Virus record (IMG/VR): IMGVR_UViG_3300032893_000735
Span: 41,826 to 105,825 of that record
Reading direction: 5' to 3' (one strand)
Source: a virus
Length of the DNA stretch: 64,000 nt
Part shown: positions 9,725-51,290 of the stretch, piece after piece
Position numbering within the stretch: the stretch's first letter is position 1
Layout of the letters: each line of letters begins with the position of its first letter
The notes under the pieces: generated by a model
What the model saw: the letters and a program-made list of their open reading frames with translations, nothing else
The model's database searches: none
What the model was told of the DNA's origin: nothing
Position numbers and translations under genes: made by a program

Positions 9725-9729
9725 GAACT

Positions 9730-9807: not shown

Positions 9808-9808
9808 A

Positions 9809-9882: not shown

Positions 9883-9887
9883 AAAAC

Positions 9888-9962: not shown

Positions 9963-9966
9963 AAAC

Positions 9967-10042: not shown

Positions 10043-10048
10043 GAAACT

Positions 10049-10124: not shown

Positions 10125-10128
10125 AAAC

Positions 10129-10203
10129 TGGTAGACCGCCAGAGACTCGAACTCTGTCCAAGACGCGGTAAAAGCACGTTATGCACCCTCACACTCACGG
10201 TCC
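10129..10203 (-). tRNA. tRNA-Lys (anticodon TTT)
   Basis: The acceptor is GGACCGT/GCGGTCT, CCA encoded. The anticodon stem ACGTG/CGCGT encloses CTTTTAC. The D-arm is weak, with G-T pairs. Confidence 0.8.
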
Positions 10204-10209
10204 AAAACT

Positions 10210-10285
10210 TGGTGCGTCCAGAGGGAAACGATCCCCCGACCTTCTCATTAAGAGTGAGTTGCTCTACCAACTGAGCTATGGACGC
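10210..10285 (-). tRNA. tRNA-Lys (anticodon CTT)
   Basis: The acceptor is GCGTCCA/TGGACGC, CCA encoded. The anticodon loop is CTCTTAA. The D-arm carries the usual AGTTGGTA. Confidence 0.87.
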
Positions 10286-10286
10286 A

Positions 10287-10379
10287 TGGTAGGCGATGAG
10301 TGAGTTGAACACTCCCGTTGCGCTAATCTGGCGCTTTCCCGAGTCTATAAGTCTCAGCCGCACACCGATGCTATCGCCC
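10287..10379 (-). tRNA. Class II tRNA of unclear identity (best anticodon reading TAT)
   Basis: The acceptor is GGGCGAT/ATCGCCT with A and CCA. A GCGC/GCGC variable arm makes it class II (Leu, Ser or Tyr type), and the T-arm is GAGTG/CACTC. The anticodon arm pairs best as CTGAG/CTCGG around a 9-nt loop ACTTATAGA. A 7-nt loop CTTATAG gives TAT (Ile) but needs an A-A closing mismatch; ATA (Tyr) would break the stem. Confidence 0.7.
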
Positions 10380-10386
10380 GTAAACT

Positions 10387-10457
10387 TGGTGCCAAAGCGG
10401 GGAATCAAACCCCTCATTCCGCTTTATGAGGGCAGATGCCGAATCATCGGCCTTGGC
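10387..10457 (-). tRNA. tRNA-Met-type (anticodon CAT)
   Basis: The acceptor is GCCAAGG/CTTTGGC, CCA encoded. The anticodon loop is CTCATAA with one C-A mismatch in the stem; the D-arm is short. Elongator Met, initiator, or Ile2 (lysidine-modified) cannot be told apart here. Confidence 0.78.
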
Positions 10458-10462
10458 AAAAC

Positions 10463-10537
10463 TGGCGGGAGATGTAGGATTTTAACCCACAAGTTCCGGG
10501 TTGGAGCCGGACAGTTTGACATTGAGCTTAATCTCCC
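10463..10537 (-). tRNA. tRNA-Trp (anticodon CCA)
   Basis: The acceptor is GGGAGAT/ATCTCCC with discriminator G, as expected for Trp, and encoded CCA. The stem TCCGG/CCGGA encloses CTCCAAC. Confidence 0.88.
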
Positions 10538-10538
10538 G

Positions 10539-10613
10539 TGGAACCCGGTAGCGGAGTTCAACCGCTGTTTCGAAGTTCGTAGCTTCGCGCCTTATGCGTT
10601 AGACGAACCGGGC
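10539..10613 (-). tRNA. tRNA-Arg (anticodon ACG)
   Basis: The acceptor is GCCCGGT/ACCGGGT, CCA encoded. The stem CGAAG/CTTCG encloses CTACGAA. Confidence 0.88.
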
Positions 10614-10622
10614 ATTTTAAAA

Positions 10623-10696
10623 TGGTCGGGGTAGAGGTAATCGAAACCTCGTCTTATGATCCCAAATCATAGGCTTGACCTTCCAGCTATACCCCG
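10623..10696 (-). tRNA. tRNA-Pro (anticodon TGG)
   Basis: The acceptor CGGGGTA/TACCCCG has the C1-G72 pair typical of Pro, discriminator A, CCA encoded. The stem TATGA/TCATA encloses TTTGGGA. Confidence 0.88.
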
Positions 10697-10697
10697 A

Positions 10698-10773
10698 TGG
10701 TGGGCAGTCGCAGAATCGAACTGCGCCGTGAGGCTTTTCAGACCTCCGTTCCAACCATGCAAACTCACTACCC
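10698..10773 (-). tRNA. tRNA-Phe (anticodon GAA)
   Basis: The acceptor is GGGTAGT/ACTGCCC, CCA encoded. The stem GAGGT/GCCTC encloses CTGAAAA; the T-loop is TTCGATT. Confidence 0.88.
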
Positions 10774-10885
10774 AAAACTTATTCGGTTTTATCTGCATCA
10801 TCATTCTCGGGCATATAAGAGGTTAGTCAAGCTAACGTAGGATGCTTGCAATGGCAGAGCGGGAAACCGAAAAACACCTTTGTAT
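10774..10885 (-). ncRNA. Structured non-tRNA segment in the tRNA array
   Basis: This 112-nt stretch has no tRNA features. Its transcript is closed by TTCGGTTT/AAACCGAA and contains GTTAG/CTAAC and GCATC/GATGC helices. It may be a small RNA, a decayed tRNA or a processing spacer. A TTGACT-N7-TATATG element lies inside it. Confidence 0.4.
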
Positions 10886-10961
10886 TGGTGGAGCATGTCG
10901 GATCTGCCCCGACTGCCTCCGCGTTGCAGGCGCGGCGCTCTCCTAATTGAGCTAATGCCCC
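10886..10961 (-). tRNA. tRNA-Ala (anticodon TGC)
   Basis: The acceptor is GGGGCAT/ATGCTCC, discriminator A, CCA encoded. The stem CCGCG/CGCGG encloses CCTGCAA. The T-loop (GGCAGAT) departs from the usual TTCRANY. The first tRNA base overlaps the stop codon of the upstream HNH gene. Confidence 0.8.
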
Positions 10962-11542
10962 TACTCGGGGTGCCTCCATTTGTAAGGCCCGTCCCGATTA
11001 TTATAGTGGTCCAAATCATGACAATTAGGGCATAAGAGTTCCAAATTGTCTATCGTATTATTTGTTCGATCTCTATCCTTATGGTGAACTTGCAAAATTT
11101 CCGGATGAAGATCATACCCACATCTGTTACAAATCTTATCGTAAGTTCGAAGTGCTATCGCTCTGTAGCTGTATCTTCCATCGCCATAATGACTTGGTCT
11201 GAGAATTTCATTATGCTTTCCCATTCTTTGGGCGTCATCTTTGCAGATTCTAGAACAAAATCGGAGTCCGCTCTTCGATTTCTTGAGATTAGATTGACTT
11301 CTGTAAAAGATCAACCCACAGTTGTCACACTTTAGTTCATGTATTTTAGACGGATTGGATGCTCGGAAACATTCAGGGCTACAGTATCTCCTACCTGCAT
11401 GTTTTGGGGCATAGAAACTTTTTCCGCAAAAAGTACAGAACTGCAAAAACAACTTACGCTGCTTTCCATCATAGATAGTTGAAACAATTACCTCTTCCAC
11501 GTTTAGTCCTCTTCTGGGGGCGGGACCTACGCGAATCATCAA
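10961..11542 (-). CDS. HNH homing-type endonuclease with zinc fingers
   Basis: The product (193 aa) has two FCxxC/CSxxC zinc knuckles (about residues 36-60 and 71-97), then a C-terminal HNH module: ICNRCGYDLHPEILQVHHKDRDRTNN with ELLCPNCHD (residues 136-176). Such proteins nick or cut DNA and are usually selfish free-standing elements in phages. It lies between two tRNA genes, and its stop codon abuts tRNA-Ala, which fits insertion beside a tRNA. The start ATG follows AGGTGG; a GTG at 11500 after GAGGAC is an alternative. Confidence 0.85.
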   Translation of the reverse strand: MMIRVGPAPRRGLNVEEVIVSTIYDGKQRKLFLQFCTFCGKSFYAPKHAGRRYCSPECFRASNPSKIHELKCDNCGLIFYRSQSNLKKSKSGLRFCSRICKDDAQRMGKHNEILRPSHYGDGRYSYRAIALRTYDKICNRCGYDLHPEILQVHHKDRDRTNNTIDNLELLCPNCHDLDHYNNRDGPYKWRHPE

Positions 11543-11615
11543 TCCACCACCTGTAGAATTTCTATGCTACAGGACATTTACCACGCTTGAGTTTAGCATC
11601 CTCAAACACTTATTT

Positions 11616-11695
11616 TGGGGTGGCCGGAGGAAGTTGAATCCTCAAGAAGCAAATTCCACAGACTTGTCCGACATACCCGTAGTCGGCACGGCCAC
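11616..11695 (-). tRNA. tRNA-His (anticodon GTG)
   Basis: The acceptor is GTGGCCG/CGGCCAC with discriminator C, the His identity base, and encoded CCA. The stem CAAGT/ATTTG encloses CTGTGGA; the T-loop is TTCAACT. Confidence 0.85.
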
Positions 11696-11722
11696 ACTTG
11701 TTGTCCATTATCTGGACGAAAC

Positions 11723-11804
11723 TGGAGCCTAGTGAGGGACTCGAACCCTCGCGTTGGAATGGCAGTTTACAAAACTGCTGCTGTCGCCGCTGAGCCAACT
11801 AGGC
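11723..11804 (-). tRNA. tRNA-Thr (anticodon TGT)
   Basis: The acceptor is GCCTAGT/ACTAGGC, CCA encoded. The stem GCAGT/ACTGC encloses TTTGTAA; the T-loop is TTCGAGT. Confidence 0.9.
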
Positions 11805-11850
11805 ATTTCACGTCCGCACTTAGGGAGGCGGAACTCCAACTTACAAAGAA

Positions 11851-11879
11851 ATACTACCACAACATTTCTTAATTGTCAA
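11851..11879 (-). promoter_or_regulatory. Promoter inside the tRNA array (TTGACA-N17-TAGTAT)
   Basis: A consensus TTGACA lies 17 bp upstream of TAGTAT, preceded by TGTGG as in the 13302 promoter. Transcription would start about 40 nt before tRNA-Thr(TGT), giving the distal half of the array its own start. Confidence 0.65.
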
Positions 11880-11887
11880 GCGAAATC

Positions 11888-11962
11888 TGGAGCCGAATAG
11901 CGGCCTCAAACCGCTGTCTCATGCGTACCAAGCATGTGCTCTTTCTGTTGAGCTAATTCGGC
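11888..11962 (-). tRNA. tRNA-Thr (anticodon GGT)
   Basis: The acceptor is GCCGAAT/ATTCGGC, CCA encoded. The stem CATGC/GCATG encloses TTGGTAC. Confidence 0.88.
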
Positions 11963-11963
11963 T

Positions 11964-12037
11964 TGGAGCCCAATTGGGGAATTCAACCCCAGTCTTCTCT
12001 GTACGAAGGAGATGTACTGGCACTGTACTAATCGGGC
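11964..12037 (-). tRNA. tRNA-Thr (anticodon CGT)
   Basis: The acceptor is GCCCGAT/ATTGGGC, CCA encoded. The anticodon loop is TTCGTAC; the stem has one C-A mismatch. Confidence 0.83.
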
Positions 12038-12043
12038 ATTAGT

Positions 12044-12118
12044 TGGCTCCGCCGCGAGGTTACGATCCCCGTTTCCCGAGTTCAAAGCCCGGTGCCTTAC
12101 CGATTAGACGACGGCGGA
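12044..12118 (-). tRNA. tRNA-Gln (anticodon TTG)
   Basis: The acceptor is TCCGCCG/CGGCGGA with discriminator G and CCA, as usual for Gln. The stem CCGGG/CTCGG encloses CTTTGAA. Confidence 0.88.
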
Positions 12119-12124
12119 ATAACT

Positions 12125-12203
12125 TGGGGAGGTAGACGGGAATTGAACCCGCGTAACACGGTGTGAAAGACCGTGGACAAAAACCAGCGTTGTCGGCTAC
12201 CTC
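12125..12203 (-). tRNA. tRNA-Glu (anticodon TTC)
   Basis: The acceptor is GAGGTAG/CTACCTC, CCA encoded. The stem ACGGT/ACCGT encloses CTTTCAC; the T-loop is TTCAATT. Confidence 0.88.
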
Positions 12204-12220
12204 AAACTTTTTATCTAAAA

Positions 12221-12307
12221 TGGCGGAAGTCGGAGGTAACGATCCCCCATCCCTTTCGGGAGCCACGGTTTTCAAAACCGTTTGTCTCACCATCGACGGC
12301 GACTTCC
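12221..12307 (-). tRNA. tRNA-Ser (anticodon TGA)
   Basis: Class II with a CTCCC/GGGA-type variable arm. The acceptor is GGAAGTC/GACTTCC with discriminator G. The stem ACGGT/ACCGT encloses TTTGAAA. Confidence 0.9.
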
Positions 12308-12311
12308 AAAC

Positions 12312-12399
12312 TGGCGGTTGGTTGAGAAATCGAATCCCCGTGCCTTACGACACTCCGACTGCTTTCGAAACAGTTTGCGAACCTTTCGCGGAACCAACC
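12312..12399 (-). tRNA. tRNA-Ser (anticodon CGA)
   Basis: Class II. The acceptor is GGTTGGT/ACCAACC with discriminator G and CCA. The stem ACTGT/GCAGT encloses TTCGAAA; the T-loop is TTCGATT. Confidence 0.9.
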
Positions 12400-12408
12400 T
12401 TAAACTAA

Positions 12409-12546
12409 TTCGCGGAGAGAATTTCGGCGTCAGTACAATGTTTCTTTCGCTGGGCAGTTTCTCTCTGCCTCGGATCGGGTTCTAGACCCCGTTAGCTAGT
12501 ACCTGAAAAGCATCCCTCGTCTGCACACGACCTATTTCTAGCGCGA
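12409..12546 (-). ncRNA. Structured non-tRNA RNA candidate in the tRNA array
   Basis: The 138-nt transcript would be closed by TTCGCG/CGCGAA. Inside are hairpins TCGT/ACGA, GCT/AGC, CGGG/CCCG (loop GTCTAGAA) and GGCAG/CTGCC (loop AGAGAAA). There is no T-arm and no CCA end, so it is not a normal tRNA. It could be a small RNA or the remains of a class II tRNA. Confidence 0.45.
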
Positions 12547-12549
12547 AAC

Positions 12550-12635
12550 TGGCGGAAAGCACAGGAGTTTAACCTGATACCTTTCAGTACGCATCCGCTT
12601 CCAACGGAGCCTCGGAACGTCCGAGTTTACTTTCC
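12550..12635 (-). tRNA. tRNA-Ser (anticodon GGA)
   Basis: Class II. The acceptor is GGAAAGT/GCTTTCC with G and CCA. The anticodon loop is TTGGAAG, with one mismatch at the base of the stem. Confidence 0.85.
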
Positions 12636-12636
12636 A

Positions 12637-12725
12637 TGGCGGAGAAGGTGGGTGCTGACCCCACGCGGCTCTTTCAAGTCCACTGGTTTAGCAAACCAGC
12701 CCGTTTACCGTTCCGGCACTTCTCC
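12637..12725 (-). tRNA. tRNA-Ser (anticodon GCT)
   Basis: Class II. The acceptor is GGAGAAG/CTTCTCC with G and CCA. The stem CTGGT/ACCAG encloses TTGCTAA. Confidence 0.9.
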
Positions 12726-12733
12726 GTAAAACT

Positions 12734-12799
12734 TGGTTGAGAACGTGTGCTCTGGTCGGGTTGATTAAGCACGTTTACCGCAGCCGACCAGCGTTCTCA
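12734..12799 (-). ncRNA. 66-nt tRNA-like RNA with a predicted pseudoknot and ACCA end
   Basis: It sits between two tRNAs with the same CCAAGTTT spacers and ends in ACCA, but it has no T-loop and no usable anticodon arm. The RNA has an outer stem TGAGAACG/CGTTCTCA and an inner 8-bp stem CTGGTCGG/CCGACCAG. GTGCT in the inner loop can pair with AGCAC between the two 3-prime strands, making a pseudoknot. It is probably processed like a tRNA; its role is unknown. Confidence 0.6.
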
Positions 12800-12803
12800 A
12801 ACT

Positions 12804-12881
12804 TGGTGCGGATGGTCGGATTTGAGCCGACAGACCGAAAGGTTTGAGCTTTCGAGGTATTCCAATTCCCATCACATCCGC
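12804..12881 (-). tRNA. tRNA-Leu (anticodon CAA), short variable loop
   Basis: The acceptor is GCGGATG/CATCCGC, discriminator A, CCA encoded. The stem GAAAG/CTTTC encloses CTCAAAC. The variable loop is about 5 nt, unlike normal class II Leu tRNAs, and the D-arm pairs poorly. Confidence 0.75.
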
Positions 12882-12886
12882 AAACT

Positions 12887-12968
12887 TGGTACCCGCAGAG
12901 GGACTTGAACCCCCACCCCTAGAGAATGCATCCTAAGTGCATCGTGTCTGCCATTCCACCATGCGGGC
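12887..12968 (-). tRNA. tRNA-Leu (anticodon TAG)
   Basis: The acceptor is GCCCGCA/TGCGGGT, A, CCA encoded. The stem ATGCA/TGCAT encloses CTTAGGA; the T-loop is TTCAAGT. Confidence 0.9.
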
Positions 12969-12978
12969 AAAATTAAAC

Positions 12979-13065
12979 TGGTACTCGGGAAGGGACTCGA
13001 ACCCTCATCCCCTTTCGAGGATTAGCACCTCAAGCTAACGCGGCTTCCAATTTCGCCACCCGAGT
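12979..13065 (-). tRNA. tRNA-Leu (anticodon GAG)
   Basis: Class II with a TCCTC/GGGGA variable arm. The acceptor is ACTCGGG/CCCGAGT with A and CCA. The stem TTAGC/GCTAA encloses TTGAGGT. Confidence 0.9.
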
Positions 13066-13140
13066 AAAACTTTGTCGGATTTGTCCAGGCGGGGTCCGAC
13101 TGGCCTCGATACGTTTAAAGTGGTGTTTGTCATCCACTAA
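13066..13140 (-). ncRNA. 75-nt structured spacer, possible decayed tRNA
   Basis: It is exactly tRNA-length, between tRNA-Leu(GAG) and tRNA-Cys. The transcript can form AGTGG/CCACT and GTCGGA/TCCGAC hairpins but has no acceptor, T-loop or CCA. Confidence 0.3.
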
Positions 13141-13215
13141 TGGAGTACCGTGCTGGACTTCAACCAGCTAAAGAGGTTTTGCAGACCTCTGATTCGAGCC
13201 TTTATCTTACGGTAC
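13141..13215 (-). tRNA. tRNA-Cys (anticodon GCA)
   Basis: The acceptor is GTACCGT/ACGGTAC, discriminator T (usual for Cys is U), CCA encoded. The stem GAGGT/ACCTC encloses CTGCAAA. Confidence 0.88.
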
Positions 13216-13216
13216 A

Positions 13217-13292
13217 TGGTAGGCGGCCCGAGATTCGAACTCGGATATCAACGATCTTAAATCGTTTGCCTTTGCCGTTAGGCTAGCCGCCC
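13217..13292 (-). tRNA. tRNA-Leu (anticodon TAA), short variable loop
   Basis: The acceptor is GGGCGGC/GCCGCCT, A, CCA encoded. The stem AACGA/TCGTT encloses TTTAAGA; the T-loop is TTCGAAT. The 5-nt variable loop is of class I, unusual for Leu. It is the first tRNA of the array. Confidence 0.83.
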
Positions 13293-16637: not shown

Positions 16638-16852
16638 TAGGTAAGCGATACTACGTAAGCGTATGGGTTGGTACGGGCCCGTGTGATCCATTGCGAATCT
16701 AGCAATAATTGACCGCGACTGAGGATAGCGCTTGCTGTGTGCGGGCCCGTCTATAGTGTATAGAGTGATTCGGGGCGCGAAAACGTGCATTCCGTCCGTA
16801 AAATGGATTTTCGCAATGTTTTTCGGCCTTCATTATCAATCGTTTAGGGTAG

Positions 16853-16870
16853 TTTTCCACATTTTCCACA
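16853..16870 (+). promoter_or_regulatory. Two adjacent DnaA-box-like 9-mers (TTTTCCACA twice)
   Basis: TTTTCCACA occurs twice without a gap. Each matches TTWTNCACA, the DnaA-box consensus. Single copies stand about 10 nt before the -35 boxes of the promoters at 18977 and 21798. They could bind host DnaA or simply be a shared activator site. Confidence 0.55.
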
Positions 16871-16881
16871 GACAGGGGAGA

Positions 16882-16910
16882 TTGACACAAATTCGGGATA
16901 GTGGGAATCT
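16882..16910 (+). promoter_or_regulatory. Early rightward promoter (TTGACA-N17-GAATCT)
   Basis: There is a perfect -35 TTGACA; the -10 (GAATCT) is weak but shares AATCT with the 18977 promoter. It lies just after the paired TTTTCCACA boxes and 30 nt before the first rightward gene. Confidence 0.55.
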
Positions 16911-16939
16911 AGGAATGTCAACGCAACAAAGGAGACGAG

Positions 16940-17431
16940 ATGGCACAGCAACCAAATTGGAAGAGCATCGGCACGGTCGGAGATGTTAACCCGTTGGACT
17001 ATGACGGCGGATACGTATATGAGGATACGACTGGCGTCTATCCTGCCGAATTGGAATATGTCCGGAATGTATCGGGCACAGAAGACGAAAACGGACCGTG
17101 GGAAGTCTATCGCTGGCCATTGGACCGCTACGAAATGGTCGACGCGGGCGGTGATACGCTGCTAGTGCCGTTTGGGTTTGGCTCTCGTTCAGATCTTCCT
17201 CATCCGCTGGCCAATTACGACGCGTGGTTTAATGACGACATTTCGCAAGTAGCATCCTATGTTGGATCCAACGTTGCGGAGATGCGTGCTTCGCTGTGCT
17301 CCGACAATCCGATGGAGCGGGCCTGGGTATATTTGGACCTTGCGACCTGCCACGGTTTCGAGAATTTCGACTCTTACCCTCTTGACTACTCGGACCGCGA
17401 AGAACTGGAGAAGCGGTACGCAACGTTATAG
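16940..17431 (+). CDS. Hypothetical acidic protein, first rightward gene
   Basis: The product (163 aa) is unrecognised. It is acidic and aromatic-rich (many Asp, Tyr and Trp), with no membrane segment or known motif; the C-terminal half (ASLCSDNPMERAWVYLDLATCHGFENF) may be helical. The start follows AAAGGAG by 5 nt. Its position behind the first rightward promoter suggests an early host-takeover gene. Confidence 0.65.
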   Translation: MAQQPNWKSIGTVGDVNPLDYDGGYVYEDTTGVYPAELEYVRNVSGTEDENGPWEVYRWPLDRYEMVDAGGDTLLVPFGFGSRSDLPHPLANYDAWFNDDISQVASYVGSNVAEMRASLCSDNPMERAWVYLDLATCHGFENFDSYPLDYSDREELEKRYATL

Positions 17432-20133: not shown

Positions 20134-20961
20134 ATGGACAGAACGACGAATCGAGTGGACGTACCGAAACGGGTTTTAGATCGCGTCTACGCATCGAAAC
20201 CTGAAGACTGGAAACAGCACGAAAACGGCGGCGGATGGGTGCATAAAACCGCTTATGTTGAAAAATCGGCTTATTTGCATCCTACGTCGATTGTGTCCGG
20301 CGATGCTCGGGTGTACGGCAATGCTCGGGTGTACGGCGATGCTTGGGTGTCCGGCAATGCTTGGGTGTACGGCAATGCTCGGGTGTACGGCGATGCTTGG
20401 GTGTCCGGCAATGCTCGGGTGTCCGGCAATGCTTGGGTGTCCGGCGATGCTCGGGTGTCCGGCGATGCTCGGGTGTCCGGCGATGCTTGGGTGTCCGGCA
20501 ATGCTCGGGTGTCCGGCAATGCTCAGGTGTCCGGCGATGCTTGGGTGTCCGGCAATGCTCGGGTGTACGGCAATGCTCAGGTGTCCGGCAATGCTCAGGT
20601 GTCCGGCGATGCTTGGGTGTCCGGCAATGCTCGGGTGTACGGCAATGCTCAGGTGTCCGGCGATGCTCGGGTGTACGGCAATGCTCGGGTGTCCGGCGAT
20701 GCTCGGGTGTCCGGCGATGCTTGGGTATTTTCGCCCCTCTACATCCAAGGCACAATGCACTCGCTCACCTTGTGCAGTTTTACGCAAATTGCTGTAGGGT
20801 GCCACGTCCATGATATAACCTATTGGATGAAGCATTACAAGGCAATAGGGCGGACCGAGGGGTACACGAAAGAACAGGTAAGCGAGTACAAACGACATTT
20901 GGATTATTTGGCCGCAGAGTCTGAGCGGCTACTGGCTGCAAAAATCGAAACGAAGGAATAA
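20134..20961 (+). CDS. Left-handed beta-helix repeat protein
   Basis: The product (275 aa) has a unique N-terminus, about 24 six-residue repeats (residues 50-197) of the type SGNARV, YGNAWV and SGDAWV, and a unique C-terminal 80 residues. Hexapeptide repeats of this type fold as a left-handed beta-helix, as in bacterial transferases and some phage proteins. There is no transferase catalytic His at the expected site, so the role is unknown. The repeat units differ only at a few positions and are near-perfect 18-nt DNA repeats. The start after AAGGGAG was preferred over an ATG at 20095. Confidence 0.75.
   Translation: MDRTTNRVDVPKRVLDRVYASKPEDWKQHENGGGWVHKTAYVEKSAYLHPTSIVSGDARVYGNARVYGDAWVSGNAWVYGNARVYGDAWVSGNARVSGNAWVSGDARVSGDARVSGDAWVSGNARVSGNAQVSGDAWVSGNARVYGNAQVSGNAQVSGDAWVSGNARVYGNAQVSGDARVYGNARVSGDARVSGDAWVFSPLYIQGTMHSLTLCSFTQIAVGCHVHDITYWMKHYKAIGRTEGYTKEQVSEYKRHLDYLAAESERLLAAKIETKE
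20300..20725 (+). repeat. 18-nt tandem repeat coding for the hexapeptide array
   Basis: About 24 units of GGTGTCCGGCRATGCTYR differ at three positions (tcc/tac, a/g, c/t). The unit variants are shuffled rather than ordered, which points to recent recombination or slippage. Confidence 0.9.
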
Positions 20962-22830: not shown

Positions 22831-23993
22831 TGGACGAGAAAGCAGGATCAATGAAAGGCTTCAAGGGTTTTGACAAGGATCTGAAGTGCCGAGGTTTCCA
22901 ATACGAACTTGGCAAAACATTCGCCCACGAAGGAACCGTAGACCTTTGTTCGCCCGGCTTCCATTTCTGCGAAAACCCGCTTGACGTGCTCTCTTATTAC
23001 GGGGTGGCAAACGGAAATCGTTTCGCGGAAGTAGAGGTCGATGGAGTAACTGACCAGAAGGAAAACGATTCAAAACGGGTCTGTTCTTCTCTTGCCATCG
23101 GTGCAGAAATTTCCCTCAAGAATCTAGTCGATCATTCGATTAAATTCATCTTCAACAAAACCACAAACCCCACCAGTGGCGACTACGCGCACTCGGCCAC
23201 CAGCGGCGACTACGCGCACTCGGCCACCAGCGGCAACAACGCGCACTCGGCCACCAGTGGCGACTGCGCGCCCTCGGCCACCAGTGGCGACTGCGCGCGC
23301 TCGGCCACCAGCGGCAACAACGCGCATTCGGCCACCAGCGGCGACTACGCGCACTCGGCCACCAGCGGCGTCTACGCGCACTCGGCCACCAGCGGCAACT
23401 ACGCGCACTCGGCCACCAGCGGCAACTACGCGCACTCGGCCACCAGCGGCGACTACGCGCACTCGGCCACCAGCGGCAACAACGCGCACTCGGCCACCAG
23501 CGGCGTCTACGCGCACTCGGCCACCAGCGGCATCTACGCGCGCTCGGCCACCAGCGGCAACTACGCGCACTCGGCCACCAGCGGCGACTACGCGCACTCG
23601 GCCACCAGCGGCAACAACGCGCATTCGGCCACCAGCGGCGACTACGCGCACTCGGCCACCAGCGGCAACAACGCGCACTCGGCCACCAGCGGCATCTACG
23701 CGCGCTCGGCCACCAGCGGCAACTACGCGCACTCGGCCACCAGCGGCGACTACGCGCATTCGGCCACCAGCGGCGACTACGCGCGCTCGTCTGCTATGGG
23801 GGGAAATTCAATAGCCGCCGCTATTGGTAGAAACGGCGCAGCAAAGGCATCCGTAGGAAACTGGATCGTTCTGGCGGAATACAAGGACAACGGAGAGATT
23901 GTATCCGTGAAAATGGCAAAAGTGGACGGCGAGAAGATCAAGGCCGACACTTTTTACCAACTCAAAAACGGGGAGTTTACGGAAGCTGAATGA
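22830..23993 (+). CDS. DUF7666-like protein with nonapeptide repeats
   Basis: The product (387 aa) has an N-terminal domain of a phage family I recall as DUF7666 (GFKGFDKDLKCRGFQYELGK ... GFHFCENPLDVLSYY), then about 23 copies of a 9-residue repeat SGDYAHSAT (residues 112-318), then a short tail. The repeats probably form a beta-solenoid. The function is unknown; a role in host binding or decoy display is possible. The start ATGGAC is one arm of a palindrome; ATG at 22851 is an alternative. Confidence 0.65.
   Translation: MDEKAGSMKGFKGFDKDLKCRGFQYELGKTFAHEGTVDLCSPGFHFCENPLDVLSYYGVANGNRFAEVEVDGVTDQKENDSKRVCSSLAIGAEISLKNLVDHSIKFIFNKTTNPTSGDYAHSATSGDYAHSATSGNNAHSATSGDCAPSATSGDCARSATSGNNAHSATSGDYAHSATSGVYAHSATSGNYAHSATSGNYAHSATSGDYAHSATSGNNAHSATSGVYAHSATSGIYARSATSGNYAHSATSGDYAHSATSGNNAHSATSGDYAHSATSGNNAHSATSGIYARSATSGNYAHSATSGDYAHSATSGDYARSSAMGGNSIAAAIGRNGAAKASVGNWIVLAEYKDNGEIVSVKMAKVDGEKIKADTFYQLKNGEFTEAE
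23173..23793 (+). repeat. 27-nt tandem repeat coding for the nonapeptide array
   Basis: About 23 units of CGCNCACTCGGCCACCAGYGGC plus a variable codon pair; the units differ mainly at GAC/AAC/GTC/ATC and TAC/AAC/TGC. The protein therefore varies at two positions of each turn. Confidence 0.9.
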
Positions 23994-34616: not shown

Positions 34617-34844
34617 ATGCGGGCAGTTAAACAAAAGTATCGGTCAGGGTCAGGGTCACGGTCACGGTCAGGGGCACGGTCAGGGTCAGGGTCAGGGTCA
34701 GGGTCAGGGGCACGGTCAGGGTCAGGGTCAGGGGCACGGTCACGGTCAGGGTCACGGTCAGGGGCAGGGTCAGGGTCAGGGTCAGGGTCATGGTCATGGT
34801 CACGGTCATGGCCATGGTCACGGTCAGGGTCATGGTCGTATTGA
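34617..34844 (+). CDS. Possible low-complexity Ser/Gly/Arg protein
   Basis: A reading frame of 75 aa starting MRAVKQKYR and continuing as SG, SR and AR dipeptides through the hexamer repeat. It may be real (GGAAAGTAGG precedes it) or just the translation of a DNA repeat; two other frames through the repeat are also open. Confidence 0.3.
   Translation: MRAVKQKYRSGSGSRSRSGARSGSGSGSGSGARSGSGSGARSRSGSRSGAGSGSGSGSWSWSRSWPWSRSGSWSY
34642..34836 (+). repeat. Hexamer repeat GGTCAG/GGTCAC (telomere-like, G-quadruplex potential)
   Basis: About 32 tandem copies of GGTCAN, where N is G, C or T. At 34682-34710 four spaced GGG runs separated by TCA fit a stable G-quadruplex in the rightward transcript. 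The repeat lies between two genes of the same operon. Confidence 0.9.
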
Positions 34845-39061: not shown

Positions 39062-40081
39062 ATGCCGCGTAAGAAACCAGAACCGAAGAAGATTGAACTC
39101 AACGAAGAGCAGAAAGAAGTAGTTGAATTCAGGGAGGGATTTGCTTGCTGCCTAGCAGGCCCCGGCGCGGGAAAAACCAGTGTTTTAGTTGAGAGGCTTG
39201 TCTCTCTGATTGAGGAGGGAGTACCCGCCTCTGATCTGATATCCCTCAGCTTCACATCTACCGCCGCGAAGAATCTTCGAGACAGAGTCGAAGCTAGAGT
39301 CGGAAAACTGTCCACTAATCGGACAGCGGGTTGTGTCACCTTCCACTCAATGGCCCTGAGTTTTGCGCAAGAAGAACGAAACGAATTCAGCTATAATTTG
39401 TCCGAGTTTCCCTTAGCCACAGAGCCGGTAGCTAATAAACTGTCCGCCGAAGCCGCTAAAAAATACGAAATTGACCCGAGGTCTCTACGGTCGTCGGTCA
39501 GCCTGTTCAAGAGGCGCAGGATTTCCCCGCGTAAGGCGGTTCGGGATTCCGAGAATTCACTAAAAGCCTCTGAGCTAAAGATGGCGCTGGCGTACCAGGA
39601 CTATGAAAAGCGTTGCGCGGAACAAGGTATTCTGGATTTTGATTCTCTGATTTTTCAGATGGTGGAGATTCTGGACAAGAAACCGAAAGTCAGGGGACGC
39701 TGGGTTCGGGATTGGCTGCAACTCGATGAATCCCAGGACATGTCCAAAATTGAATGGGACCTGGCCAAACTTATCTCCGGCAAGAGCGTTCTCGCCGTAG
39801 GGGATATCTCGCAGGGAATCTATGGATTCCGGGGAAGCGACCCCCGACTGTTTCGTGACATGTCCGAGATTTTCCCAGGCACAAAAACTCTATATCTGAG
39901 TTGCAATTTTCGTAGTTCGCCCCAGATTATCGACTTCATACGACCAGTTGCGGCCAGTCAGGATCTGGCGGCTAAGTTTCACACTCAAAATCCATCCGGT
40001 CCTCCTCCTCTAGTGAAGGGCTTTTCTTCCGCCGTGGAAGAAGCGAACTGGGTGGTTAGTAGGATCAAGGAGAATCTATGA
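39062..40081 (+). CDS. UvrD/PcrA-like SF1 helicase, N-terminal half (split gene)
   Basis: The product (339 aa) has SF1 motifs: a Q-motif, Walker A GPGAGKTS (residues 33-40), motif Ia SFTSTAAKNL, motif II LQLDESQDMSK, motif III VLAVGDISQGIYGFRGSD and the next NFRSSPQIIDF. It ends EEANWVVSRIKENL, exactly where an intact UvrD would enter motif IV. The rest of the enzyme is the product of 40466-41311. Neither half alone holds all motifs, so both must associate to work, if the helicase is active. A palindrome lies in KLSTNRTAG. Confidence 0.88.
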   Translation: MPRKKPEPKKIELNEEQKEVVEFREGFACCLAGPGAGKTSVLVERLVSLIEEGVPASDLISLSFTSTAAKNLRDRVEARVGKLSTNRTAGCVTFHSMALSFAQEERNEFSYNLSEFPLATEPVANKLSAEAAKKYEIDPRSLRSSVSLFKRRRISPRKAVRDSENSLKASELKMALAYQDYEKRCAEQGILDFDSLIFQMVEILDKKPKVRGRWVRDWLQLDESQDMSKIEWDLAKLISGKSVLAVGDISQGIYGFRGSDPRLFRDMSEIFPGTKTLYLSCNFRSSPQIIDFIRPVAASQDLAAKFHTQNPSGPPPLVKGFSSAVEEANWVVSRIKENL

Positions 40082-40277: not shown

Positions 40278-40466
40278 ATGGACAAGTGGATTAGCGTAGA
40301 GGAAGAACTGCCGAAATTCGTAGGCAAAAGTGCAGGAGACGGTCGAGACTTCGCCTACATCGGTTGGGACGGCGTAGACATCGCACCCCTTAACGAATAT
40401 TCAGGGTATTGGCCGCATCTTGTGACCCACTGGATGCCTCTTCCGGAACCGCCGAAGGAGAAGTGA
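40278..40466 (+). CDS. DUF551-like protein (62 aa)
   Basis: The product has the DUF551 layout, WISVEEELP at the start and LVTHWMPLPEPP at the end. These proteins are common in phages; function unknown. The start ATGGAC is one arm of a palindrome. Its stop overlaps the start of the helicase C-half, so all four genes are coupled. Confidence 0.72.
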   Translation: MDKWISVEEELPKFVGKSAGDGRDFAYIGWDGVDIAPLNEYSGYWPHLVTHWMPLPEPPKEK

Positions 40467-41311
40467 TGGACAAAACTACTGCGATCATTTGCAGGACAAA
40501 TCTCGGACTTAGGCCGTTTGAGCAGGCTCTGGCCGATGCTAGCATACCTTACAGGCTCGTGGGCCGTAGCGGGTTTTGGCAACAGCCCGAGGTTCGCCTC
40601 CTTCTAGCCCACCTCCAATGCTGTATCTACCCTTCGGACTACGCCGTTCTATCCGCGCTTCGGGGGCCATTCTACGTCACAAAGTACCTCCCCAAATCCA
40701 AAATAGCGGCGCGAGTCAAGGAGTTGCAGACAGACGGGGAACCTTCTGCTTGGCACCTACTTACCAAGGAAAGCTACTCGCTGGTCGAGAACAAGAACCT
40801 AAAGGCACTTCAAGATTTTGTCCAGTTTATCCACCAACTCAGCCGGTACAAGGATCTCCGACCGGCGGACGTGGTTAAGCAGGTCATCGTGGCACTCCAC
40901 GCAGTTGACTACTACGACTGTGAAACAACGGAAGACAATGACCCAATCCAGAACTTAAACGAGCTTGTGAAAATCGCAGGTAAGCATTCTACTCTGAAGG
41001 AGTTTTTGGATTACGCCCGCCGAGTAACTGCGGCGTCTAAGAAGCGATCTGGGGTAGCGCTGAGCACAATCCACAGCGCCAAGGGGCTCGAATGGCAACG
41101 TGTCTTTATGGTCCAGTGCTCGGAAGGAATAATCCCGCACGCAAAATCCACGGACCTAGACGGAGAACGCAACGCTTTTTTTGTCGGCGCATCCAGAAGC
41201 GAGCGGGAGCTGATCCTGACGTATTCAGGACGACCGTCGCAATTCCTTGAGCCTTACCTAAAGACCGTGGTAGAATCTGAGACAAAGGAGGAGACAGATG
41301 TCCGCAATTGA
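40466..41311 (+). CDS. UvrD/PcrA-like SF1 helicase, C-terminal half (split gene)
   Basis: The product (281 aa) begins TTAIICRTNLGLRPFEQAL, then SIPYRLVG (the post-motif IV region), and holds motif V VALSTIHSAKGLEWQRV and motif VI FVGASRSERELIL. Its frame is the same as that of the N-half, and the inserted 384 nt between the N-half stop and this start is a multiple of three. It has its own AAGGAGAAG before the ATG. Confidence 0.88.
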   Translation: MDKTTAIICRTNLGLRPFEQALADASIPYRLVGRSGFWQQPEVRLLLAHLQCCIYPSDYAVLSALRGPFYVTKYLPKSKIAARVKELQTDGEPSAWHLLTKESYSLVENKNLKALQDFVQFIHQLSRYKDLRPADVVKQVIVALHAVDYYDCETTEDNDPIQNLNELVKIAGKHSTLKEFLDYARRVTAASKKRSGVALSTIHSAKGLEWQRVFMVQCSEGIIPHAKSTDLDGERNAFFVGASRSERELILTYSGRPSQFLEPYLKTVVESETKEETDVRN

Positions 41312-44278: not shown

Positions 44279-44292
44279 GGAAAGGAGGATAT

Positions 44293-45519
44293 GTGCCAAA
44301 AAGAGTAGTAGATGGGGAGGGGATATGGGGGTCCGACAAGATCCTCCGGCTAAGTACGGAATTCCAGCCTGAATACGCCAACCTTCTTCCGCTCGCGGAA
44401 GCTAACGGAGTTTTCGAAGTTAACCCGCATAAAGTGTGGTCAAGGGTCTATGCCTACAACAGACGGAACGTAACTGTCGAGTGGGTCCAAGAACTTCTCA
44501 ACGAACTCGTGGAGGTCGGTCTTCTCTTGATATGGGAGGACAACGGCAAAGTGTGGGGATTCTGGGACGGGAACGAAAAGGCCGGACGGTTGCCGAAAGA
44601 GTCAGAGCAAAAGAAGTATAAAAACCTCCCACCGAACCCTCCCAAAAATCTCAGCGAAGTCTCAGCGGAGACTCAGCGGAGACTCAGCGGATTCTCAGCG
44701 GAGCTTCCGCTGAATCTCCCCCCTAGGTTTGGTATGGTTAGTAATGTAATGGTTAGTATAGGAACGGACCCTGCGGGGCTCGGTTCTAATTTTTCAAATC
44801 CAGAAAACGGACAAGACTGCGAGGAAGATGTGAACCTGAAGAGATTCAAAGACGAGATGGCAACCATCGGAGTAAACCACGGATTTAAGGTGAAGGCATA
44901 TGACGACGCTTGGGCGGAGTTGAAGACTCTAACCACTGCCCACGGATCTCAGGCGGTCCTGAACGACTTCGACGAGTTCCTGTCCGAGAGTGAAGGTGAA
45001 GAATTCCCGAAGGGAGTTTTGCAGAAGTACCAGTACATCGCCGCCGACCGGCTTTTGGGGAACTCGCCCACGTCGGCAAAGGCGGAAATCAAGTCTCCCG
45101 CCGTGACTGACCTCTGCCGAGAACTCACCTACATGTCCGATGGGGTAATTTCCTTCATCGACAAGCAGAAGATCAAGCTGGCTGAGTTGCTGAAGGACTG
45201 GACGGTAGACGAAATCAAGGCCGTGTTCCGCGAGTGGCTGGACGCCCAAGACGTGAATGACGCCAAGAATGTCCAGTACCTCCCTGGCAAGTTCGTACAG
45301 ATTGCCGACTCCAAGTGCTATTCTTTGCGTAGGAGCCGTCAGGAGAAGGCTGCCGAGGCCGAGGCTAGGGCAGCTAAGGTCAAAGAGCTACAAGAGGCCG
45401 CAGAACGCGATCTAGAGGCATCCAGGAAGAAGAGGGAAGAGGAAGAACAGGTTCTGGACCCACTTGGGCTGTTCTCAGACGAAAATAATTCTACCAGTGT
45501 CGCGGAAGGTGTGGTATAA
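44293..45519 (+). CDS. Replication initiator-like protein containing iterons
   Basis: The product (408 aa) has an N-terminal winged-helix-type domain (residues 7-95: ILRLSTEFQPEYANLLPLAEANG, in parts) of the kind found in phage replication initiators and replisome organisers, a linker, and a C-terminal helical domain with a coiled-coil tail. Five 11-bp repeats lie in the linker-coding DNA, as lambda O carries its origin inside the gene. The GTG after AAAGGAGG was chosen. It is followed by the methyltransferase gene. Initiator function is inferred from the fold pattern and the iterons. Confidence 0.65.
   Translation: MPKRVVDGEGIWGSDKILRLSTEFQPEYANLLPLAEANGVFEVNPHKVWSRVYAYNRRNVTVEWVQELLNELVEVGLLLIWEDNGKVWGFWDGNEKAGRLPKESEQKKYKNLPPNPPKNLSEVSAETQRRLSGFSAELPLNLPPRFGMVSNVMVSIGTDPAGLGSNFSNPENGQDCEEDVNLKRFKDEMATIGVNHGFKVKAYDDAWAELKTLTTAHGSQAVLNDFDEFLSESEGEEFPKGVLQKYQYIAADRLLGNSPTSAKAEIKSPAVTDLCRELTYMSDGVISFIDKQKIKLAELLKDWTVDEIKAVFREWLDAQDVNDAKNVQYLPGKFVQIADSKCYSLRRSRQEKAAEAEARAAKVKELQEAAERDLEASRKKREEEEQVLDPLGLFSDENNSTSVAEGVV
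44650..44704 (+). other. Candidate replication origin: five 11-bp iterons
   Basis: CTCAGCG starts at 44650, 44661, 44672, 44683 and 44694, at exact 11-bp steps, with the full unit CTCAGCGGAGA. The period is not a multiple of three, so the repeat is not kept for the protein. An inverted TTCCGCTGA follows at once, then an AT-richer stretch with ATGGTTAGTA twice (44736-44758). Confidence 0.7.
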
Positions 45520-45527: not shown

Positions 45528-47372
45528 ATGGACAAAGCACTTACAGTTGGGTCGCTATTCGCGGGTATAGGCGGCTTCGACCTTGGATTTGAGAGAGCGG
45601 GATTTGAGGTAAATTGGTGCGTCGAGATCGATCCGTTCTGCCGAAAGGTCTTAGCCAAGCATTTTCCGAACGCCAAACGGTATGAAGACGTTAGGGAAGT
45701 TGGAAAACACAATTTGGAACCAGTGGACGTGATTTGTGCTGGGTTCCCTTGCTTTCCGTCAGGGAGCCTAGTTCTTTCTTCTAAGGGGTATCAACCTATT
45801 GAAAACATACGGGTAGGCGATCTTGTGCTTACCCATAAAGGTAGGTGGAGAAAGGTCACAGGAACCGGTGGTAGAAATAATGCGCCACTTGTTACTCTTA
45901 AAGGACAAGGACATTGCGGATTAGAGGCTACTCCCGACCATCCATTTTGGAGCAGAAAAACTAAAGGATATTATCCTTCTGTCAACGGTAAAAGGAAGAA
46001 TTTACGTGTATTTGACGGAGAAGCCTCGTGGACTGATGCGAAGGATATGTCGGGTTTGAGATGGGCTTGTCCTACGTCGGTGGAACCTCTTCCCGTTCCT
46101 GTTATAGAGCCTCTGAACAACCGTTGCAAGACTCCCCCGGTTCAGGATGAAAAATTTTGGTGGATTGTCGGGCGGTGGTTAGGAGATGGTTGGTGTCAGC
46201 AGACTCAGAGGCCGGATCGCCCTGAAGGGGAATTGTGGGGTAAATTTGTAATATGCTGCGACCATGTTGAAGCTGATGAGTTGGAGTTGAAAATATCAGA
46301 AGTATTTGGTATTTCTCCTAGAAAAGAAGTATGCCGAACTGCTACCAAATTTTACATAGGAGATAAGTCAACTTGTACGTGGTTTGAATCTAACTTCGGA
46401 AAAGGAGCCTCCGAAAAAACATTACCGGCTTGGGTGTACGGGATGCCTGAAAGATTTCGAACTGCCCTTCTTGAAGGTTACAAGAGTGCCGATGGGTCTA
46501 CAAATAAGCCTGGAAATCATCGTTTTACGACGGTAAGCAAGTCTCTTGCAACCTCGATTCGTTTATTATCTGAAACTTTGGGTTTTAGTAGTTCTTTGCA
46601 CCACTATGAAATTCCCCCGACGACGGTTATTGAGGGGCGAGTTGTAAACCAAAAACCTCAGTATCAAGTAGTTATGAATCAAAATCCTCGTAGCAACGGG
46701 ATGCGAGATGAAAAACATAACTGGTATAAGGTACGAAGTTCTAAATCCTGTGGAAAATTTACTGATGTATTTAATATTGAGGTAGAAGAAGACAATACCT
46801 ACGTGGTAGAAAACATAGTAGTACACAACTGTCAAGATATTTCCGTAGCTGGAAAAGGTGTTGGAATTTCAGGAGAACGAAGTGGACTCTTCTTTGAAGC
46901 GGCAAGGATCATTAGCGAGATACGACCGCGATACGCAGTCTTGGAAAATGTACACGCCCTCCTTGTTCGGGGAATGGACCGAGTTCTCGGGACGCTTTCC
47001 GAAATCGGGTATGATGCGGAGTGGCATACTATTCGAGCTTCGGAATTCGGGTTGCCGCAAGAGAGAGAGAGAATCTGGATTGTTGCCTACCCTTCCGAAG
47101 AGCGAAACGAGAGATTCTTCGAAAGCCTCTATTCTAGCGAAGTTGGACAGAGGTGGTCGGGTGGCGAGACGGATTTGCAGTCGATCATCGATCTTGCGCT
47201 CGTCGGATCAAATAGTTTCCCTAAACCCTTGCTTTGCGGAGTGGATGACCGGCCTACCGGTTGGGTGGACAGAGTTGGATCTTGTGGAAACGCAGTAGTA
47301 CCGCAGATTCCAGAGTGGATAGCAAAACGGATACTTGAAGTTGAAGGCGTCCAGAAAATGGACAGGAGCTAA
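45528..47372 (+). CDS. DNA (cytosine-5) methyltransferase interrupted by an intein
   Basis: The precursor (614 aa) carries a methyltransferase of 254 aa split by a 360-aa intein (residues 75-434). The host enzyme has motif I FAGIGGFDLG (11-20), motif IV GFP|CQDIS joined only after splicing, motif VI ENV, motif VIII QERERIWIVA and motif X GNAVVPQI. It would methylate phage DNA or guard it from restriction. The start codon lies in a near palindrome behind a TATAAT (45515), and its end (GVQKMDRS) is a perfect palindrome. The target-recognition region is short, so specificity cannot be guessed. Confidence 0.92.
   Translation: MDKALTVGSLFAGIGGFDLGFERAGFEVNWCVEIDPFCRKVLAKHFPNAKRYEDVREVGKHNLEPVDVICAGFPCFPSGSLVLSSKGYQPIENIRVGDLVLTHKGRWRKVTGTGGRNNAPLVTLKGQGHCGLEATPDHPFWSRKTKGYYPSVNGKRKNLRVFDGEASWTDAKDMSGLRWACPTSVEPLPVPVIEPLNNRCKTPPVQDEKFWWIVGRWLGDGWCQQTQRPDRPEGELWGKFVICCDHVEADELELKISEVFGISPRKEVCRTATKFYIGDKSTCTWFESNFGKGASEKTLPAWVYGMPERFRTALLEGYKSADGSTNKPGNHRFTTVSKSLATSIRLLSETLGFSSSLHHYEIPPTTVIEGRVVNQKPQYQVVMNQNPRSNGMRDEKHNWYKVRSSKSCGKFTDVFNIEVEEDNTYVVENIVVHNCQDISVAGKGVGISGERSGLFFEAARIISEIRPRYAVLENVHALLVRGMDRVLGTLSEIGYDAEWHTIRASEFGLPQERERIWIVAYPSEERNERFFESLYSSEVGQRWSGGETDLQSIIDLALVGSNSFPKPLLCGVDDRPTGWVDRVGSCGNAVVPQIPEWIAKRILEVEGVQKMDRS
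45750..46829 (+). mobile_element. Intein with LAGLIDADG homing endonuclease inside the methyltransferase
   Basis: The intein begins with Cys1 (CFPSGSLVLSSKGYQPIE) and ends VVHN, followed by Cys as the +1 residue. Block A (CFPSGSLV), block B-type residues (TPDHPFW), the endonuclease motifs WIVGRWLGDGW and ALLEGYKSADGS, and block G (VVHN) are all present, so both splicing and homing look intact. It sits exactly before the catalytic Cys of the methyltransferase (GFP|CQDIS), so the first extein residue after splicing is the enzyme nucleophile. No copy of the dispersed palindrome occurs inside it. Confidence 0.92.
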
Positions 47373-49237: not shown

Positions 49238-49417
49238 GTGGAAACTCCTGAGCAATATGCAATGCAGATCCTAGACCGCCTTGGATTTTTGTTCGGGCAC
49301 GACTACGTTCCTGGAAACGCAATCGACAAGGCGGTTAAATTCACTATCGAAGTCTTTGAAGATAAAGATTTCGAGGATCTTAACGGGTATAACCAAAGTG
49401 ATTCGGGGTGGACATAA
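49238..49417 (+). CDS. Hypothetical protein (59 aa, GTG start)
   Basis: GTG start after TAGGAGG. It opens METPEQYAMQILDRLGF and ends QSDSGWT. Helical at the start. Function unknown; it leads directly into the primase-helicase gene. Confidence 0.6.
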   Translation: METPEQYAMQILDRLGFLFGHDYVPGNAIDKAVKFTIEVFEDKDFEDLNGYNQSDSGWT

Positions 49418-49418
49418 C

Positions 49419-51290
49419 GTGGAAGATTTGGATGCGTTGAAGAGTAATCCAGGGGTAATCAGGGTATACTCACGATACGTAAAGTTGAAGAAGGCGGGGA
49501 ACAAATACGTAGGATGCTGCCCGCTTCCTGAGCACAATGACGGCAGTCCGAGTTTCACAGTGTTCCCAGACATGCGGGCTAGTTGCTTCGGGTGCGGGGC
49601 TAATCTGAACGTATTCCAACTTGTCCAGAAAATGGACGGATGCGATTTTAAGACTGCGGTAGAAAAGGTGAAGGAAGAAGTGGGCGAGACGAGCTGGGAA
49701 TCCGCGAAGCAGAAGGTAGAAAGCACGTTTAAGGCCGTCGCGGAGCCGAAGACCTACAAGACCATCTCCTTAGAGCAGTGGAAGAAGATGGAGGATAATC
49801 TCGCGCAATCAAAATCCGCCCAAGACTTTCTCCTGAACGAGCGCGGGATTACATTTGAAACCGCCCAGAGGTTGCGACTTGGGTTTGTCCAGAATCTAGG
49901 AGCTTTGGCGGGGGCAGATGGGGCAGACATTGCTAACCAAGGCTGGATTGCTCTTCCTTCGATTGAGGACGGCAAAGTCGTGTCCGTGAAATACAGGTCC
50001 ATTATTCGGAAAAAGCCGGGAGGGTTTAGCCGCCAACCCGGTATGGCTACGGCTTTGTTCAACGCGGAAACCATTGATCCGTTTGAACCAGTAATGGTGG
50101 TGGAGGGGGAGTTCGATTCGTGCGCGCTAGAACAAGCAGGATTCAAAGCTGTTTCTGTCCCAAATGCAGGGGCGAAATTAACCCCGGAGCAGAAGGACAA
50201 GCTGATGCAAGCATCGATGGTGATCCTGGCTGGGGATACCGACGCTGCTGGCGTGACTTCGATGGACCGGCTCTGGAAGGAACTCGGAGAACGGGTTTAC
50301 AAACTGACGTGGCCGGAGGGGATGAAGGACGCGAACCAGACGCTTCTTGAGAACTGCGGTCGGGACGTTTCAAAATTCAAGAATCTTGTAGATGAGTTGA
50401 CTAGAAAGGCGAAAAGCCAGCCTATGCCCTCCGTTTATTCACTGCAAGAAGCCATGATGAATGGGGAAGAGGGAACGCTGTCCGAGAGGACGGATCGTCT
50501 TCGGATGCCGTGGTCTTGCCTTGATGACTCTTTGATTATTCTACCGGGGCATGTCTTCGGGTTCGGCAGCTCCAATACTGGCATGGGCAAGACACTTTGG
50601 ACAGTTCAGGTTAGCTTGTATAACGCTCGTAAGTTCGGGAGAACCGTGCTGAATTTTCAAGCTGAGATGGACCCGTCTGAGATCGGTGATTTGGTCGCCG
50701 CACAGATGCTCAGGGTTGACCGGAACACGTTGACTAAGTCGGACAGGGTTAAGGCGGCGCAAATCCTAGGGTCCGAAGGTGTTAATTACTATATTGGCCG
50801 GGATTCTAACCTTACGGAACTGAACGAGGTTCTTGACCTTTTGGAAGCAGCCATCAAGAGGCTGTCCCCCGAAATCGTGATCCTGGACCACTTCCATCAT
50901 TTTTCGGCTGGAACTTCGAACGAAGTGAACGCACAATCCGCTGCGATGACCAGAATCAAGGCGCTAGCAGACGCCTACAAGGTAATTTTTATCAACGTAG
51001 GACAACCCCGCAAAAGTAACCAGCAATCTCGTGGACGCAAAATTACAGTGGATGATTTTAAAGGCTCAGGCGCGTGGAAAGACGCCGCTAACTCTGTAAT
51101 GATTATCCACCGTGACCTAAACAAAGATGACGCTCCGACATCTAAGGGGCCTTACGAGGACCGTACTCTGGTCCAGGTTCTTAAGGGAAGATCGTTGGGT
51201 AGAGGATCATCCTCTGCCGTTCTTACTTGTTTCGGAGAGTTCGGCTGCTTCGAAGAAATTGATTCCGTCCACGAAGATCCTGAAGAATAA
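49419..51290 (+). CDS. DnaG-type primase fused to DnaB-type helicase
   Basis: The product (623 aa) unites both activities, as in T7 gp4. The N-terminal zinc domain has YVGCCPLPEHND and CFGCG (residues 28-67). The TOPRIM domain has VVEGEFDSCAL and VILAGDTDAAG (around 225-280). The helicase domain has Walker A GSSNTGMGKT (about 385) and Walker B IVILDHFHH. It would open the fork and prime the lagging strand with the polymerase and SSB. A GTG start at the end of the previous gene was chosen since the upstream frame overlaps that gene. A perfect palindrome encodes LVQKMDG. Confidence 0.9.
   Translation: MEDLDALKSNPGVIRVYSRYVKLKKAGNKYVGCCPLPEHNDGSPSFTVFPDMRASCFGCGANLNVFQLVQKMDGCDFKTAVEKVKEEVGETSWESAKQKVESTFKAVAEPKTYKTISLEQWKKMEDNLAQSKSAQDFLLNERGITFETAQRLRLGFVQNLGALAGADGADIANQGWIALPSIEDGKVVSVKYRSIIRKKPGGFSRQPGMATALFNAETIDPFEPVMVVEGEFDSCALEQAGFKAVSVPNAGAKLTPEQKDKLMQASMVILAGDTDAAGVTSMDRLWKELGERVYKLTWPEGMKDANQTLLENCGRDVSKFKNLVDELTRKAKSQPMPSVYSLQEAMMNGEEGTLSERTDRLRMPWSCLDDSLIILPGHVFGFGSSNTGMGKTLWTVQVSLYNARKFGRTVLNFQAEMDPSEIGDLVAAQMLRVDRNTLTKSDRVKAAQILGSEGVNYYIGRDSNLTELNEVLDLLEAAIKRLSPEIVILDHFHHFSAGTSNEVNAQSAAMTRIKALADAYKVIFINVGQPRKSNQQSRGRKITVDDFKGSGAWKDAANSVMIIHRDLNKDDAPTSKGPYEDRTLVQVLKGRSLGRGSSSAVLTCFGEFGCFEEIDSVHEDPEE

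Follow-up and report, generated by a model that had tools for sequence, protein, structure and literature searches.

Rep2009 of Lactococcus phage Tuc2009 and ORF13 of phage TP901-1 are reported to bind repeat-rich regions that lie within their own genes and serve as origins of replication (PMC8965321). A comparable principle governs ori-lambda in gene O, where an initiator with an N-terminal DNA-binding domain acts on a mid-gene origin made up of iterons followed by an AT-rich stretch (PMC7466680, PMC5043065). In plasmids of the pSK41 type (RepA_N), the protein linker encoded by the origin is reported to be dispensable for replication (PMC5703833). In the chromosome origin of Bacillus subtilis, oriC, the DnaA-trios and the DnaD recognition element are short, regular motifs on one strand that direct strand-specific loading (PMC10201434).

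We analyzed a stretch of 64,000 nucleotides (hereafter the window) that is part of a 105,825-base IMG/VR virus record. Based on the comparisons described below, an array of 11-bp repeats and the C-free stretch that follows it very probably constitute the initiator-dependent replication origin of this phage, located inside the initiator gene itself. The features of the locus are the following:

44293..45519, + strand: replication initiator gene, 408 amino acids (GTG start; Shine-Dalgarno sequence GGAGG at 44284)
44293..44640, + strand: N-terminal winged-helix-type domain, putative iteron binder (PHROG 1408, E 7e-9; AlphaFold pLDDT about 90)
44650..44660, + strand: iteron 1, CTCAGCGAAGT
44661..44671, + strand: iteron 2, CTCAGCGGAGA
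44672..44682, + strand: iteron 3, CTCAGCGGAGA
44683..44693, + strand: iteron 4, CTCAGCGGATT
44694..44704, + strand: iteron 5, CTCAGCGGAGC
44706..44714, - strand: inverted partial iteron (+ strand TCCGCTGAA, - strand TTCAGCGGA)
44724..44764, + strand: C-free, AT-richer stretch of 41 nt, putative unwinding and strand-capture element (longest C-free run, low stability, homologous place in all relatives)
44800..44814, + strand: copy of a start-associated inverted repeat (TCC-N7-GGAC), preceding the internal start of the C-domain
44821..44832, + strand: internal Shine-Dalgarno sequence (GAGGA) and in-frame GTG at 44830, from which the C-domain is probably translated separately (11 of 11 loci have a Shine-Dalgarno match of 4 nt or longer here)
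44830..45519, + strand: all-helical C-terminal domain, putative helicase or primase recruiter (encoded by its own ORF in six relatives and joined to an unrelated N-domain in locus L014; AlphaFold)
49281..51290, + strand: primase-helicase belonging to this replication module, probably starting at 49419 (synteny in relatives)

The open frame has its first GTG at 44260, but the initiator gene starts at the GTG at 44293, behind its Shine-Dalgarno sequence. PHROG 1408, the family matched by its N-domain and by those of 8 of 12 relatives, is annotated as a replication initiation protein. AlphaFold, supplied with 18 aligned rows that represent relatives either fused or in two parts, predicted with confidence both an N-domain of winged-helix pattern and an all-helical C-domain. 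Residues 135-175 were predicted to be disordered, and it is this stretch that most of the repeats and of the C-free run encode. The best viral Foldseek matches of the model include a "Replisome organizer" and other phage replication proteins. A fold search of the PDB with the model returned weak winged-helix matches and no significant one, a search of solved structures by sequence gave nothing convincing, and the C-domain matched no known family. An earlier note on this DNA had placed the iterons between an N-terminal winged-helix-type domain and a C-terminal domain, and the array indeed falls in the disordered linker between the two; the note had recognized both domains but overlooked that the gene is split in relatives and that the C-domain probably has a start of its own.

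The five iterons begin at 44650, 44661, 44672, 44683 and 44694, a step of exactly 11 bp that is out of frame with codons. The exact consensus CTCAGCGGAGA occurs in only two of the five, the core common to all being CTCAGCG(G/A). Over 44 nt, the self-match of the array at a lag of 11 is 0.91, whereas 200 dinucleotide shuffles of the linker reach 0.58 at most. Tandem Repeats Finder gives the array a score of 82, exceeded in the window by only three long arrays. Long tandem arrays of the window are found at 20293-20726 (18 bp, 24 copies), 23170-23789 (27 bp, 23 copies) and 34642-34837 (6 bp, 33 copies). Downstream of the iterons, the 41-nt run is the longest C-free run of the window on the + strand, is 68% A+T and ranks among the least stable 1% or so of local 40-mers; a 10-bp direct repeat, ATGGTTAGTA, lies within it at 44734 and 44749. 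The earlier note had thus rightly described five iterons inside the initiator gene at 11-bp steps, which stand out beyond all 200 shuffles, as well as an inverted half-iteron, an AT-richer stretch and a direct repeat following them. What it had missed in the AT-richer stretch is the C-free GG array: GG dinucleotides recur there with spacings of 5, 5, 15 and 10, a pattern partly decayed relative to that of related loci, and a strict pattern of four GG is absent from the window's own array.

Relatives of the locus were found by alignment-based searches. Searches of annotated phages with the protein, the N-domain or the window DNA returned no relatives, as did a first search of viral contigs with the single protein; alignments of two relatives then found them. 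Eleven distinct viral loci besides the window were retained (30-67% protein identity), near-identical copies (L003/L005/L021/L022/L025 and L015/L026) being counted once. The first initiator homologue adjoins a primase-helicase of 57% identity, and the order exonuclease, initiator, primase-helicase, clamp shows synteny with the relatives. At the homologous place, all eleven relatives carry 10- or 11-bp repeats, G+C-rich except in L012. These repeats give way to a C-free stretch in which GG recurs mostly at intervals of 5 or 6 nt. The self-match at lag 10 or 11 exceeds all 200 shuffles in 11 of the 12 distinct loci, the exception being L027, with the qualification that in some loci the best-scoring stretch takes in some of the GG array, and a 5-nt step likewise yields a lag of 10 or 11. 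In 11 of 12 loci the C-free run found here exceeds all others on the + strand of the locus, and again in 11 of 12, L027 excepted, it lies within the least stable 6% of local 40-mers. The iteron sequences themselves differ: the window and L015 share CAGCGGA, L012 has CTTAGA and most others are of CCGG type. The comparison with relatives that the earlier note had proposed as a check on conserved iterons therefore upholds their position, their period and the array downstream, but not their sequence.

Related N-domains also occur in two bacterial contigs, both Acidobacteria assemblies, and may provide a weak hint of Acidobacteria as the host; in one Acidobacteria contig (L154), whose N-domain is 52% identical, neither iterons nor a GG array were found. 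Other observations concern the gene content of the window. Its 22 tRNA genes form one cluster (9643-13292). An intein that has both Hint and LAGLIDADG-like domains interrupts the C5-cytosine DNA methyltransferase at 45528-47372. A UvrD-like helicase is split into N and C parts encoded by separate ORFs (39062-40081 and 40409-41311), and these parts are also apart in L015, L018, L020, L021 and L023.

The two domains of the initiator are fused in the window, L015, L016, L020 and L024. In six relatives (L012, L017, L018, L019, L021 and L023), the N-domain ORF terminates within the iterons or close to them, and a second ORF downstream encodes the C-domain. According to a tree of the N-domain that is weakly supported in places, the fused or split state changed at least three times. 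Because the gene is interrupted by stop codons at or close to the iterons in these six relatives, it is the DNA rather than the reading frame that is conserved, as the earlier note had claimed from the out-of-frame period. A further arrangement is seen in L014 (5068-6303), which belongs to the same phage group (57% primase identity) and in which the same C-domain follows an unrelated, DUF1376-like N-domain whose Pfam match is just under the curated cut-off; the linker of this protein holds different repeats and no GG array. N-domain and linker thus appear to have been swapped together while the C-domain stayed constant, which is what one would predict for an N-domain that reads the repeats and a C-domain that serves the replisome.

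In 11 of 11 loci, whether the gene is fused or split, the C-domain start carries a Shine-Dalgarno match of 4 nt or longer; the background figure for internal in-frame ATG or GTG codons within the window's genes is 23%. The C-domain starts were picked visually, close to the homologous position, which makes the comparison somewhat favourable. Since the match is present in all 11 loci, the C-domain is probably also made alone, from its own internal start. The inverted repeat preceding this start in the window is one copy of a dispersed 15-bp element, GTCCAGAAAATGGAC, behind which AAGGAG and, about 24 nt away, a start codon are often found. Its sites include 31130, 33440, 41856, 45521, 47785, 57248 and 60127, and it is present in L003 too. 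TCC-N7-GGAC occurs 51 times on the + strand of the window where 3.4 are expected, and 25 times in L003 where 1.2 are expected. The element resembles the start-associated sequences of cluster K mycobacteriophages (PMC3203893) but differs from them in being an inverted repeat, in its sequence and in being also intragenic.

Among described origins, one that is close to the window in layout is that of Tuc2009, an intragenic origin established by experiment. The Tuc2009 rep gene (orf16, Rep2009), whose record in the phage collection bears the note "contains origin of replication", has a linker of the same two-part layout, with a mid-gene origin and 11-bp head-to-tail iterons as in the window. In Tuc2009 the iterons are directly followed by a C-free GG array that is more regular and longer (a 58-nt C-free run) than the window's C-free run, with its GG spacings of 5, 5, 15 and 10. 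The iteron sequences of the two differ, the Tuc2009 protein is annotated as a DnaD-like helicase loader whereas that of the window belongs to PHROG 1408, and rep is a single gene in Tuc2009 whereas the window's relatives are often split. TP901-1 has no GG array, which shows that this element is not universal. With lambda O, the window shares an N-terminal DNA-binding-type domain, a candidate origin in the linker of the same gene and an adjacent AT-rich stretch. In lambda, however, O dimers bind four iterons spaced 20-24 bp apart, whereas the window has 11-bp direct repeats; lambda's inverted-repeat iterons of about 19 bp at a spacing of about 20 bp (lag of 20) are not found in the window, and the O gene has a C-free run of only 23 nt and no GG array. 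The C-domain of lambda O recruits a separate helicase loader, P; the phage of the window encodes a primase-helicase of its own. The lambda-O-like label of the earlier note accordingly holds for the principle of an intragenic origin but is not supported for the lambda ori layout, the 11-bp head-to-tail iterons being of the Tuc2009 type and the C-free stretch, with its partly decayed GG array, resembling that type. In pSK41-type plasmids, Rep boxes are central in the rep gene, as are the repeats in the window, but the initiator family differs by name. The motifs of B. subtilis oriC adjoin initiator sites and provide an analogy for the GG array only: with 3-nt trios and TnnT motifs in a chromosome origin, both period and sequence differ, and there is no sign of shared ancestry.

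A scan of viral contigs on DNA alone, for seven GG at 5-nt steps in a C-free stretch, identified at least 120 stretches, 99 of them nonredundant. Sixty-seven of the 99 listed arrays fall, at codon 70-280, within an ORF on the same strand that is 180 codons or longer. Over the 77 nt that precede the listed arrays, the mean best self-match is 0.57 at a lag of 11 and 0.30-0.36 at other lags, and 11 is the best upstream lag in 45 of 67 nonredundant ORFs among the matches listed. Of the 67 listed ORFs, 35 match PHROGs of DnaD-like helicase loaders and 24-26 match those of replication initiation proteins, with PHROG 1408 accounting for 24; a handful are out-of-frame readings or unrelated. The two-part arrangement of iterons and C-free array thus recurs in initiator genes of numerous phages that are not related to one another. 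Arrays with other steps behave differently: among the matches listed, an upstream lag-11 signal of at least 0.6 accompanies 37 of 98 arrays of 5-nt step, 2 of 94 of 4-nt step and 11 of 99 of 6-nt step. Initiator N-domains are nearby in 64 of 99 (5-nt), 1 of 99 (4-nt) and 4 of 105 (6-nt) loci among the matches listed, the first figure being partly circular in that the profiles of two of the three initiator domain types were built from the 5-nt set, which does not apply to the PHROG classification. Searching the phage collection with one GG array retrieved 84 records, mostly of Lactococcus, Streptococcus and Enterococcus phages, most of the arrays falling in genes whose annotation is replication protein or replisome organizer. 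We note that L099 (4373-5680) and three similar ORFs from the scan are initiators with an HNH endonuclease domain, which in L099 sits between N-domain and array. Scanning viral contigs with TAGGAACGGANCCTGCGG yielded one extra contig, L007, devoid of relatives of the window's replication genes, and the match was attributed to chance. DnaD TnnT motifs were ruled out as the explanation of the array, purine-only arrays (GGAAGGGAAGG) being without T. A hairpin after the array that seemed conserved, with an apparent compensatory change (CCC-TGC-GGG in the window, GCC-TGC-GGC in L003), was also rejected, as it scores no better than random stretches.

In the mechanism that we propose, the N-terminal winged-helix domain would bind the five head-to-tail iterons, one per helical turn, such that initiator subunits may stack on one face of the DNA. 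Strain from the stacked subunits could then open the C-free, AT-richer stretch next to them, and the strands, once melted, would be held while the C-domain recruits the primase-helicase that the phage itself encodes a few genes further downstream. It is conceivable, if somewhat short of probable, that the C-free array with GG every 5 nt is a general and previously unnamed phage origin element, a strand-specific single-strand code akin to the DnaA-trios that would capture the melted strand and set the site of helicase loading, common to unrelated N-domain families and kept where the gene is split. No description of a 5-nt GG array was found in the open-licence papers searched.

Other readings of the repeats were considered. 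Iteron-binding initiators often autoregulate, a general tendency that, together with the C-domain start found just downstream in all loci, would suit an autoregulatory operator governing the gene itself or the translation of its C-domain, replication beginning elsewhere. We give this reading little credence: the site lies some 350 bp inside the gene, a search for a promoter-like site near the array found none, and both the association of the C-free GG array with initiator genes across phages and the Tuc2009 precedent favour an origin, although operator and origin roles can coexist at one site. That the repeats are instead selected as protein, as a flexible repeat linker of which the DNA repeats are a by-product, would agree with the predicted disorder of a linker that is usually coding. 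It is extremely improbable given the out-of-frame period, the linker amino acids that are not conserved among relatives, and the naturally split genes, with stops in or near the array in six relatives and the C-domain read in its own ORF.

A different location altogether has to be weighed in light of the GC-skew analysis proposed by the earlier note. Over the whole record, the skew turns clearly near 16 kb of the window, where gene orientation changes, and shows nothing at 44.7 kb. Because phage skew mostly follows the gene strand, this evidence speaks only weakly against 44.7 kb. The noncoding divergent gene junction at the skew turn (16790-16940) holds two tandem DnaA-box-like sites, TTTTCCACA, at 16853 and 16862, and an origin near 16.8 kb, with the 44.7-kb repeats being secondary, would agree with both the turn and the sites. 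Yet the skew tracks gene orientation and there are only two sites, neither of which fits the strict box TTATNCACA, and we consider an origin at this junction very unlikely. The intragenic origin at the iterons and C-free stretch remains our preferred reading, although, besides the skew, the partly decayed GG array of the window, the L027 iterons that do not exceed shuffles, the lack of both arrays in L154, and a model and C-domain that match no solved structure significantly and no known family count against it.

Most phage origins are unmapped and, if the two-part signature of iterons and C-free array holds, origins would become readable from sequence in very many phages. The low-complexity linkers of initiators (EGKGREGKG, RLGKDRLGKD) would then be the shadow of a DNA element, and the split-gene relatives provide a natural test of selection on DNA versus peptide. 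The proposal further makes testable the idea that phages may use a single-strand loading code resembling that of bacterial chromosome origins.
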